Assembly (NCBI GenBank): GCA_016267585.1
Contig: JACQUT010000328.1
Coordinates: 1 to 11,377, forward strand
DNA: 11,377 bases
DNA from: Cyanobacteria bacterium NC_groundwater_1444_Ag_S-0.65um_54_12
Lineage (GTDB): Bacteria > Cyanobacteriota > Sericytochromatia > S15B-MN24 > VGJW01
Reading direction: 5' to 3'
A model generated the notes under the pieces. The model searched no databases. It was not told where the DNA came from and worked only from the letters and a program-made list of their open reading frames with translations. A program made the position numbers and the translations under genes. Position 1 is the stretch's first letter. Every line of letters starts with the position of its first letter. Below, piece by piece: positions 5,532 through 9,268 of this stretch.

Positions 5532-5984
5532 CTAGAGCGAAAGGCACATTTCATGCGTTTGTGGACTGAAACCTAATTGTTCGTATAGCCGGTAGGCAGA
5601 AATATTAGCTGGATTCACAAAAAGTCGGATTCGTGCCAGGCCATGTTCACTGGCATAAGAAATAGCAGTTCCGAAGAGTTGCCTGGCTAACCCACGCTTG
5701 CGGAAAGCCGGGAAAACACCTACGTTCACGATGAAGAGGTCCGCCAAATCGGTAACGGGATGAAAGGATTTCATGGTCCAAAGGCAGCCAGCTACCTGGG
5801 AGTTGCTATCCGCAATCCAGATGATCTTGGAATGAATTCCATAGTAGTGCGCAAATTCATCTGCTACCCTTCGCTGCAATGATGCTGGTGGTAATGAGCA
5901 CAGATCGGGATAGGTTTCTTTCATTCCCAGCTCCAGCAGCGCCAGTAAGGCTGGTCGATCAGTGGATTGATGCTGTCTTATCAT
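5532..5984 (-). CDS. GNAT family N-acetyltransferase
   Basis: This 150-residue protein would transfer an acetyl group from acetyl-CoA to an amine or protein N-terminus; the substrate is not predictable. The GNAT order is clear: helical N-terminus, strand WIADSNSQVAGCLW (56-69), then the strand IVNVGVFPAFRKRGLARQLF (85-104) whose RKRGLA (95-100) is the acetyl-CoA pyrophosphate loop, and the C-terminal NISAYRLYEQLGF (127-139) typical of motif B. The start at 5984 is preferred because GGAAGAG precedes it and MIRQ fits the usual GNAT beginning. An in-frame ATG at 5996 is possible and would begin six bases after the stop of the gene before it. The gene sits between the receiver/J-like membrane protein and leuS, probably in one transcript, with no sign of a functional link to either. 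Confidence 0.9.
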   Translation of the reverse strand: MIRQHQSTDRPALLALLELGMKETYPDLCSLPPASLQRRVADEFAHYYGIHSKIIWIADSNSQVAGCLWTMKSFHPVTDLADLFIVNVGVFPAFRKRGLARQLFGTAISYASEHGLARIRLFVNPANISAYRLYEQLGFSPQTHEMCLSL

Positions 5985-6002
5985 GATCTCTTCCATTTTG
6001 TG

Positions 6003-7892
6003 TCAACGTACTTCTAGCACCTGTATAGCGGAGCGTGCTGCACGGTCAGCTTGCATGGTGGCGGCCATGACCAGGTAACGATAACGTCCGGGATGTCGAA
6101 TCACTTCCGAATCGATCACCTCATGGTACTGGCTGCTGGCGGTAGCTATCAGCTGCCAATGTGCTAGCACGTCTTCGTCAGCTATTCGATATACCGCGAT
6201 CTTGTCCCAGCTAGTTAGCCAGTTAATAATTACTCCATCTGAACGCAGGTAACTTGTTACCGTTAATTGTCCGAGCGTCGGCAGTTTATCGCTGGTCCAG
6301 TTTTCCGGTGCCATGGATAGCAAGGCGGCAAGAAGTCCTAGCAGCGCTGTAACGGCAAGAGCCAAGCTGGACCAGCGATTGCGCCTAACTAACCCCCAAG
6401 ATTTGTCATCAGCTTTGATTGGTACGGGTTGCCAGTTGTCAAGTTGCAGGGGAGGGGAAAGCGCTATCAGTTGTCGTGGTGCAGTATGCACCTTGAAGAA
6501 TTTTCCCCAGCTCGCTGCGTCGGCGACAGCAAGAACGATGGCTCCAGCCGGTAGCGCTTCAACTTGGTTTGGCAATTGCCAACTGGTGGCGTCACTACTG
6601 TCGGATGTCGTTTGGATATAGTAGCCTACTTGATTTGCGGGATTTTCTTCTACTGGACTGCTAGCAGCGGCCAAGATGACGATGCGTTTTCTACCTAGCT
6701 TGAAGCAGCTGCCGCGCAGTGGTCCAATTTCCTGGTCCATCGCGACCGCTAGCTCGAAAAAGCTTGGTGCCCAGATTTCCAGGTTGGCTTGCAAAGTCGG
6801 TATGAAATAGCTAACCGGTACCGGCAATTCGTTTTCTTCGGTTAGCTCTTGGACCGGCAATTCTTCTGGCAGAGCGCTCTGTTCCGCGGTGAGGTATTCT
6901 TCGCCAAGCAAGCTAGCAGCTGTTTCATTGACAATTCGTTCGCTGGCTACCCAGTTTTCTGGCGGCCAGTGATAGGGTGGCCAGGCTTCGCCACCAGGAT
7001 CGTGACGCCGGCTACCCAAGCCTGGTGGATTGCTGAGTTCGGGATCTTGCAAGGCTTCAGCGACTATTACTTCTGCGTCCGCGATGATATTTGAAAGCCG
7101 GCTGTCGACATTTTCTGCCATTTCGGATTTTTCCACCGGCAATTCGGTCATGGCGGCAGCGGTCGGTTTTTCTGGCTTTTGCTGGTGATCCGGCGCGGTT
7201 ACTGGCGGTAGCGCTGTCGTGGAAATATTTTCTATGAGGGTGTCATAACGTTCGCGTTCGACCGGATCTAGTAAAAGCTTTTCGGCCAGCGCTACGAGCG
7301 TGAGTGCATAGCCGGCGCGCGCTTTGTTCTCTTTATGATGAATACTGCGATCGGACCAGTATTCGTGATAGTAACAAATCGCTGATTCTAGTTCGTCAAA
7401 GTTGGCGGAGCGTTTTAACCCTAATAACTGATAATAATCAACTATTTGGGTTACCAACATTTCTCCGGCGCTTCCCAGTTCCGGAAGCTTTTCCAGCGGG
7501 GGATGAAAGCAACTGTCCAGGAATTCCCAGAGGTAATCTTCTCGCCAGTCCGCGAGCATTAGTGTTCGGAAACCATAGAGCCGCTTTTGCGAATCCAGCT
7601 GGGAGGGCTCATTCGCTTCTTCTGTCAGCAGTACCAGGGTGATCTCCATCAGTTCCGGGAAATGTTGCGGGTCGTGAGCTTTGATGCCGTTGATCATGGT
7701 CAGAAAAGCGGTTGGTGGGATGACTATGATGATCCCGGTGACGCTTTTTGGTTCTTCCAGCGCTTGCAAAAAACTTTCCCACTCCCCTGCTTTGGAGTGC
7801 CGAAAGATCTTCAGCGGGGTATTGGCGATCTTTGCTGGCCAGAGCAGCGGTGGGCTTTTACCATCCAGTACGATGTAGCTATTTTTTGACAT
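6003..7892 (-). CDS. Membrane protein with receiver-like, J-like and FN3-like domains
   Basis: No family covers this 629-residue protein as far as I can tell. Residues about 5-130 have the alternating strand/helix pattern of a response-regulator receiver (strand GIIIVIPP at 53-60, then ITLVLLTEE at 84-92), but without the phospho-acceptor aspartate. Residues 152-220 read like a J domain (DYYQLLGLKRSANFDELESA ... LLLDPVERERYD), but HPD is replaced by W179-S180-D181. A Pro/Glu-rich linker (about 225-360) leads to an unrecognised domain (361-500). A membrane helix follows at about 508-526 (LALAVTALLGLLAALL) after RRNR, so the N-terminal part should be inside. A fibronectin-III-like domain (543-629) would be outside. 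The start ATG lies five bases after the stop of the JAB gene with no clear ribosome site, suggesting coupled translation. Domain calls rest on pattern reading, not on a profile search. Confidence 0.75.
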   Translation of the reverse strand: MSKNSYIVLDGKSPPLLWPAKIANTPLKIFRHSKAGEWESFLQALEEPKSVTGIIIVIPPTAFLTMINGIKAHDPQHFPELMEITLVLLTEEANEPSQLDSQKRLYGFRTLMLADWREDYLWEFLDSCFHPPLEKLPELGSAGEMLVTQIVDYYQLLGLKRSANFDELESAICYYHEYWSDRSIHHKENKARAGYALTLVALAEKLLLDPVERERYDTLIENISTTALPPVTAPDHQQKPEKPTAAAMTELPVEKSEMAENVDSRLSNIIADAEVIVAEALQDPELSNPPGLGSRRHDPGGEAWPPYHWPPENWVASERIVNETAASLLGEEYLTAEQSALPEELPVQELTEENELPVPVSYFIPTLQANLEIWAPSFFELAVAMDQEIGPLRGSCFKLGRKRIVILAAASSPVEENPANQVGYYIQTTSDSSDATSWQLPNQVEALPAGAIVLAVADAASWGKFFKVHTAPRQLIALSPPLQLDNWQPVPIKADDKSWGLVRRNRWSSLALAVTALLGLLAALLSMAPENWTSDKLPTLGQLTVTSYLRSDGVIINWLTSWDKIAVYRIADEDVLAHWQLIATASSQYHEVIDSEVIRHPGRYRYLVMAATMQADRAARSAIQVLEVR

Positions 7893-7897
7893 TGGCG

Positions 7898-9268
7898 CTA
7901 GAACAATCCCAGCAATCCACGCCCGGCCTTTTCGAGGGCCAGCATGGCAGAATCCCAGGCATGGCCAGTATTGCCGGAACGATCCAGGCCGATTACCAGG
8001 TAACGGTAGGTACCGGGCAGTGGCGGTGCGTCTTTCAACTCTAATCCGGCGTTCGCTGGTCGCAATAATTGTCCGCCACCCAGGATTACGCTCGTCGTGG
8101 TGAGCAATGGTCCCTCACGTATCAACCAGTACCCTAGAATTTCTTGATCGGTTAACGCTGGGAGTTTGATGATTACCGAGTTTCGCGTATCAGCTATTTG
8201 TAGTTCGCCAGCAGGTGCAGCCGGCGGCGCAAAAACTGGTATGGTCAGTGCGAGTGTTCTGGACCAGCGAAATAGTTGTCCAGCAGTATCGAGCGCGGCA
8301 ATGCGGTACCAAAAACGTTTACCGGGGCTGCTGAGAATTCGAAATTTTAGATTTTCAAAATCTAGCGAATGCTCATTTCGGGGCAATCTGGCAATGGGCA
8401 GCGCAGTGTCAGGTGAAAATGGCGCCGAATGGTCATCCCGATATACCTGGTAACCGCTAGTTTTTGCCCCGGCACTTTCCCATTGGAGCTGTGAGGATCC
8501 GGGCAGTATCCAGGCGTTGAACGGTCTACTGGCAAGAAAGTGGTTAAATACGGCAAGGCCGGTTACCAGGAGCGCCAGAGCAATCATGCCATCACGCCAA
8601 GGCCCTTGGTACCAGCCACTGACCAGCCGACGGATCATTTGTGCCGATTTTCGAGCATGTCTGGTTCGCAGCGAAACTAACTTCTGGTTTACCGGATCGA
8701 AAAGCGCCAAACATTGCTCTTGGGTTGACGAAAGCTTGGAGTCTTCCCAGATGAAGAATCCCGCTTGCTTTCTTGGCAGGTCTATTACATAGGCAATTTG
8801 ATAAGGCCTGGAGAAATTTCGCTCATGGAAGGCTCGATCGCTGGTTCGGGAAAGAAAAATTCCCTGATCATGATGGCTGTGATACCAACCCATGACAGCT
8901 AGCTGGGCGGTTTGATAGCTTGCCAAGGATATCTTCTTATCTGCAGCTATTAACGCTACTCCAGATGGAATTTCGTGATCACAGAATGGCAAGTCCATGC
9001 GCTGCTGACAGGCCAGGACTATAACAACATGGCGTTGTTGTTTGTTTGTTTCATACAGTAAATAGCATTGTCCCAGGAGGTAACCACCGATATTATGGGG
9101 ACAAGCAGCTGCTTGCGCAGCGATATCGGCCAGCACGGAACGTGTGACGTATATTTCCAGGTGTTCCGATTGCCCTGGCCACCGCCAGAGATCGGTTAAT
9201 AACTCCGTACTTTTCATTTCTTGCCATGCAGAAGGCTCAAATGGTCTGCGCTTTGCTTCGGGTCTCAC
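7898..9268 (-). CDS. Membrane-anchored JAB/MPN (JAMM-like) protein with FN3-like repeats
   Basis: Residues about 38-175 form a JAB/MPN domain, the fold of zinc isopeptidases that remove ubiquitin-like tags. It shows IGGYLLG (60-66), VMGWYHSHHDQGIFLSRTSD (125-144) and a strand AGFFIWED (169-176). H130, H132 and D144 could bind zinc. The usual glutamate before the GG is N59, and one extra residue separates S140 from D144, so protease activity is doubtful. A basic stretch (RTRHARKSAQMIRR) precedes one membrane helix (about 227-246), placing the JAB domain inside. Two fibronectin-III-like domains (about 255-343 and 352-446) would lie outside. The second holds PGTYRYLV, echoed by PGRYRYLV in the next gene's tail. 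The start is uncertain: GTG 9268, 13 bases after the peptidase stop, or ATG 9217 (17 residues shorter). It is the first low-G+C gene after the peptidase. Confidence 0.85.
   Translation of the reverse strand: MRPEAKRRPFEPSAWQEMKSTELLTDLWRWPGQSEHLEIYVTRSVLADIAAQAAACPHNIGGYLLGQCYLLYETNKQQRHVVIVLACQQRMDLPFCDHEIPSGVALIAADKKISLASYQTAQLAVMGWYHSHHDQGIFLSRTSDRAFHERNFSRPYQIAYVIDLPRKQAGFFIWEDSKLSSTQEQCLALFDPVNQKLVSLRTRHARKSAQMIRRLVSGWYQGPWRDGMIALALLVTGLAVFNHFLASRPFNAWILPGSSQLQWESAGAKTSGYQVYRDDHSAPFSPDTALPIARLPRNEHSLDFENLKFRILSSPGKRFWYRIAALDTAGQLFRWSRTLALTIPVFAPPAAPAGELQIADTRNSVIIKLPALTDQEILGYWLIREGPLLTTTSVILGGGQLLRPANAGLELKDAPPLPGTYRYLVIGLDRSGNTGHAWDSAMLALEKAGRGLLGLF

Follow-up and report, generated by a model that had tools for sequence, protein, structure and literature searches.

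Two adjacent genes on one contig encode single-span membrane proteins that are very likely a paralogous pair of MPN subunits, one derived from a JAB isopeptidase and the other lacking metal ligands (MPN-minus). The window analyzed is the 11,377 nt at positions 1-11,377 of contig JACQUT010000328.1 of Cyanobacteria bacterium NC_groundwater_1444_Ag_S-0.65um_54_12 (assembly GCA_016267585.1), and its genome, G000, comprises 2.07 Mb in 411 contigs and is 65% complete. On the minus strand, an HD-domain gene, an M28 peptidase gene, the JAB protein gene, the partner gene, a GNAT gene and leuS (assigned by its sequence, without a Pfam scan) follow one another in one direction. Thirteen bases separate the M28 gene from the JAB gene and five separate the JAB gene from its partner, confirming the close spacing claimed in a sequence-only reading of this DNA. 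With M28, GNAT and leuS as its neighbors, the pair does not lie beside E1, E2 or Ubl genes, and the arrangement is not that of a Bil-like operon. Elsewhere in the window, positions 565-2114 of the plus strand encode a SnoaL-like protein and, after it, one with DUF2332, and positions 2283-2813 of the minus strand a 176-aa protein with no Pfam match, whose C-terminal half contains hydrophobic segments by eye.

The JAB protein comprises the following features:

7898..9268, minus strand: JAB protein, MPN-TM-FN3-FN3, 456 aa, GTG start
8702..9166, minus strand: MPN/JAB domain, residues 35-189
9092..9094, minus strand: codon 59, Asn in the window and Glu in 7/7 other aligned sequences
8837..8881, minus strand: JAMM loop H130-x-H132 ... 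S140-xxx-D144, from alignments including one to an Rpn11-like chain
8531..8587, minus strand: TM helix, residues 228-246 (hydropathy 2.04; model helix 224-246)
7928..8521, minus strand: two FN3-fold domains, residues 250-447

The head of this protein has the MPN fold and gives a profile match to PDB 6fjv at 5e-5. The catalytic Glu expected before the second strand is replaced by Asn59 in the window copy, which retains HxH and D144, the latter in an S-x3-D spacing with an extra residue relative to the common SxxD and shared by all six aligned JAB sequences that have the Asp. The residues E, H, H and D are complete in 5/8 aligned sequences; Glu became Asn in the window, two members of one genus, G001 and G002, have Arg for the first His and Glu for Asp, and HxH is not visible by eye in G003. 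As the lesions of the window copy and of G001/G002 do not overlap, at least two losses took place, unless residues were regained. The earlier proposal of an isopeptidase-derived head therefore stands as to derivation, whereas activity in the window copy finds no support, and an active isopeptidase in the window species was rejected on the change of Glu59 to Asn.

One alternative retains catalysis for the pair as a whole: the JAB protein would be an active isopeptidase, the partner its MPN-minus activator in the manner of BRCC36-KIAA0157, and the FN3 tails would gate it from outside. The five complete sites and the MPN-minus character of the partner are in keeping with this, but the missing Glu, the lost first His in G001 and G002, the HxH not seen in G003 and the S-x3-D spacing render it improbable. 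Such an enzyme is plausible for G004-like species, not for the window species.

The partner is more elaborate, combining head modules, a conserved linker and a tail of the same kind:

6003..7892, minus strand: partner protein, with receiver-like, J-like, linker, MPN-minus, TM and FN3 parts, 629 aa
7503..7892, minus strand: receiver-like alpha/beta domain, residues 1-130 (model secondary structure, weak TadZ CheY-like match, alignment)
7218..7445, minus strand: J-like domain without HPD, residues 150-225
6951..7025, minus strand: linker motif PGLGxRRxxPGxxxWPPxxWPxxxW, residues 290-314 (invariant columns of the 7-row partner alignment)
6453..6791, minus strand: putative hidden MPN-fold domain without metal ligands, residues 368-480
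6309..6365, minus strand: TM helix, residues 510-528 (hydropathy 2.39)
6006..6272, minus strand: FN3-fold domain, residues 541-629

The structure model of this protein is poor overall (pLDDT 53.8, pTM 0.29, from an alignment of 7 sequences). Its receiver fold is suggested by the model secondary structure and by one weak TadZ CheY-like match in Foldseek. Phosphorylation of this part is unsupported, since no phospho-acceptor Asp was seen by eye in the partner alignment at the end of strand 3, a placement that itself depends on an uncertain fold. The J fold was recovered, with the HPD motif missing from 6/6 aligned sequences that hold the domain. An active Hsp70 co-chaperone was rejected for this reason, so that the co-chaperone origin proposed earlier is upheld for derivation and unsupported for activity.

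Between linker and membrane helix, the partner appears, from its model, to carry an MPN domain too, with the fold but not the JAMM ligands and with moderate regional quality (pLDDT 54-76). Among the 50 matches listed for the partner, 15 are confined to residues ~359-480, all from entries of MPN-containing complexes, with the chain identities of some, 8ppl_I4 among them, being presumed; fold matches of the two proteins include 4cr2, 5cw3 and 4qft. Comparison of the MPN profiles of the JAB protein and the partner scored 28.3; the best of 300 shuffles reached 20.8, the reversed profile 13.5 and five control domains 10.2-15.7. These results point to two paralogous MPN subunits, over a short stretch of ~31 columns whose score falls to 21.2 once the profile includes cluster JABs (described below); a profile of cluster JABs alone scores 17.6 and aligns in a different register. 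Global alignment gave nothing, Foldseek with the partner model returned no match at E <= 0.001, COP9 entries aligning at an rmsd of 11.8-16, and whole-protein profile comparison recovered only the FN3 motif segment PGxYRYLV (probability 3.9). With the full-length partner as query, a protein search recovered no match at all, the window's own protein included; domain-wise comparisons did better, as did the C-terminal region of the G004 partner orthologue when used as query, which found five proteins. Given the drop in similarity with other profiles and the null global alignments, the second MPN domain rests mainly on the model. The earlier description of a JAB head set against a receiver/J head was right about the heads present, but the apparent MPN domain of the partner recasts the two proteins as MPN/MPN-minus paralogues.

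The tails point in the same direction. FN3 folds were matched in both proteins, as the sequence-only reading had proposed, with low model confidence for the partner tail and no match of the Pfam fn3 model in the tails. The claimed homology of the outer domains holds for the last FN3 domain of the JAB protein, which scored 28.8 against the partner FN3 (150 shuffles at most 20.7), but not for the first, which gave no match (15.8). Both proteins thus share an MPN and an FN3 domain in the same order, MPN-TM-FN3, about one helix, for which a duplicated MPN-TM-FN3 ancestor is the simplest account. Hydropathy and a weak charge bias suggest that the MPN domains lie inside and the FN3 domains outside.

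In the genomes searched, the pair was found in one small group. The JAB protein was detected in 5/5 genomes of the family and in 0/13 other genomes of the class (E <= 1e-8), with weaker matches in the same five genomes. The partner is likewise present in 5/5 family genomes; its profile matched six of 386 genomes of the phylum (E <= 1e-10), five of them the family members, and the sixth, G130, matches the J region only. The two genes are adjacent in all five (G000, G001, G002, G003 and G004), bearing out the expectation that they would be found together elsewhere. The source contigs of P0007 and P0012 are both 114276 long and presumably one contig. Directly downstream of the partner in 5/5 family genomes lies the acetyltransferase gene:

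5532..5996, minus strand: GNAT acetyltransferase gene

It was identified by Pfam in G000 and G003 and by eye in G001, G002 and G004. A gene for a J-like (without HPD)-TM-TPR protein comes right after GNAT in G001 and G002 (L026:10503-11708); a relative lies ~5 kb away on the pair's contig in G003 and on another contig in G004.

That both genes are decaying relics without function, as several incomplete active sites might suggest, is highly improbable. The frames are open over 456 and 629 aa, gene order and the GNAT neighbor are conserved in 5/5 genomes, and non-catalytic motifs are invariant, with REGPL in 8/8 JAB sequences and WPPxxWP in 7/7 partner sequences.

Searches for more distant JAB relatives returned few candidates. 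A JAB profile search of genome contigs gave four loci, two presumably those of G002 and G001, the others the acidobacterial locus L051 and a Terriglobia protein; no JAB frame appears among the open reading frames listed for L051. The Pfam Prok-JAB model, which missed the pair's JAB in G001, G002 and G003, matched 3/10 non-family class genomes searched (G007, G008 and G014), one of them above the cut-off. Further weak Prok-JAB matches, in 392-aa frames apart from both the pair and the cluster, occur at G001:C19:11296-11439 and G002:C167:1593-1739. The Terriglobia protein (L052:7707-8927) reads RxH where HxH is expected, carries a TonB_C domain after what looks by eye like a TM stretch, and is perhaps another membrane JAB with an outside domain.

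The same genomes encode a Ubl conjugation cluster. In the window's genome, an E1-E2-RING-like-Ubl-JAB cluster occupies 2219-6135 of L030 (G000:C259), a contig other than that of the pair, with Pfam matches for E1 (ThiF, 1.6e-41), E2 (UQ_con, 6.1e-11) and the RING-like protein (0.014, below the cut-off), and none over the cut-off for the Ubl-like protein. The Ubl terminates in LEAGA, or in LEAG followed by a tail, and lacks Gly-Gly at this site. E2 is present in 5/5 family genomes and 0/13 others of the class (E <= 1e-4), a distribution identical to that of the pair's JAB. The Pfam E2 model matched 5/16 genomes in a search that covered the five family members, 10 of the 13 remaining genomes of the class and a single Terriglobia genome. 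E2 and JAB of the cluster were seen in 5/5 genomes, E1 and the RING-like protein in G000, G001 and G004, and Ubl in G000-G003, in a tally for which the G002 contig is cut and G003 and G004 were read in part. The cluster looks like a family trait rather than a sporadic island. Its JAB keeps E, HxH and SxxD intact in 5/5 family genomes (by eye), so the cluster itself already covers deconjugation. In G001 (L031:8497-9318) and G002 (L032:3370-4230), the C-terminal end of the cluster JAB looks hydrophobic by eye, and these JABs may be membrane-anchored too. A G003 region with an additional JAB also encodes a small Ubl-like protein (L033:8209-8481; by eye, with no Pfam match over the cut-off) and is perhaps a second Ubl locus.

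Whether the pair serves this pathway is the point on which the main readings differ. The pair could instead form a membrane scaffold or envelope sensor unrelated to Ubl, its MPN folds serving only to dimerize and to tether the receiver- and J-like modules to the membrane. The incomplete active sites agree with such a role, as do the separate contigs of pair and cluster in 5/5 assemblies, all of them fragmentary, and the Terriglobia JAB-TonB_C protein, in whose genome (completeness not stated) the Pfam E2 model found no E2, so that a Ubl pathway is not necessarily a requirement for a membrane JAB. Against it stands the occurrence of the pair's JAB and E2 in exactly the same 5/18 class genomes, although, as these form one clade only, their co-occurrence shows compatibility rather than linkage and can reflect coincident gains in one ancestor. 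We regard the scaffold or sensor as a serious possibility, if a somewhat doubtful one.

A little short of an even chance is given to the full mechanism, a docking platform at the membrane with the Ubl pathway as its likeliest partner. Each paralogue would contribute a cytoplasmic MPN domain, one membrane helix and an outer FN3 tail, and by analogy with Rpn11-Rpn8, CSN5-CSN6 and BRCC36-KIAA0157 the two may associate in the membrane as a heterodimer, one subunit being MPN-minus and the other of MPN-plus descent. In the ancestor, the JAMM center of the JAB subunit was probably intact; as the center is incomplete in the window species, G001, G002 and (by eye) G003, the complex of the window species probably serves for docking rather than proteolysis. 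Cytoplasmic partners would be bound through the MPN faces and through the receiver- and J-like modules, and would most likely come from the genome's own Ubl conjugation pathway (Ubl, conjugates, or E2/RING-like proteins), while the FN3 tails would bind something in the envelope. Signaling from outside to inside, suggested earlier, may also occur. It is unlikely that the pair is a bacterial transmembrane MPN-plus/MPN-minus receptor linking an outside ligand to Ubl conjugation, in which an enzyme was repeatedly turned into a reader.

The pairing of an MPN-plus with an MPN-minus subunit is characteristic of four eukaryotic complexes, the proteasome lid, the signalosome, eIF3 and BRISC, where Rpn11-Rpn8, CSN5-CSN6, eIF3h-eIF3f and BRCC36-KIAA0157 form heterodimers. 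The present proteins resemble these as two paralogue-like MPN proteins, one enzyme-derived and one without metal ligands, but they are bacterial, membrane-anchored and equipped with FN3 tails and J- and receiver-like modules, and their "plus" subunit is itself incomplete in the window species. The Terriglobia protein offers a partial likeness, with a JAB domain, a TM-like stretch and a C-terminal domain presumably outside, but it has RxH, TonB_C instead of FN3 and no E2 found in its genome, and no partner gene occurs among the neighboring frames listed. The pair's JAB resembles the Caldiarchaeum Rpn11-like DUB in its match to the 6fjv profile, and the separate cluster resembles the Caldiarchaeum Ub operon in content; this DUB is not known to have an FN3 tail or a membrane span. 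It is active and monomeric in solution, according to the available text of PMC6043591, which does not mention MPN-plus/MPN-minus pairing in bacteria. Bacterial JAB operons and classes are described in PMC1779556, which nowhere uses the word "fibronectin", and BilC is the name used in PMC11354881 for a Ubl-operon JAB protein. From the Ubl-operon JABs (the PMC1779556 classes, BilC and Cap3), the pair's JAB differs in not lying beside E1, E2 and Ubl genes, in its membrane span and FN3 domains, and in the missing catalytic Glu of the window copy. Within the accessible parts of the open-access literature, no bacterial MPN-plus/MPN-minus pair or JAB-TM-FN3 protein was recognized.

If the receptor reading is true, the pair would be the first example from prokaryotes of an arrangement like that of Rpn11-Rpn8 or BRCC36-KIAA0157. 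A bacterial membrane pair, present in all five family genomes searched along with a separate E2-bearing Ubl cluster, would show that MPN pairing arose at least once outside eukaryotes. It would also offer a simple system in which to follow the passage of a deubiquitinase fold to a non-catalytic scaffold.
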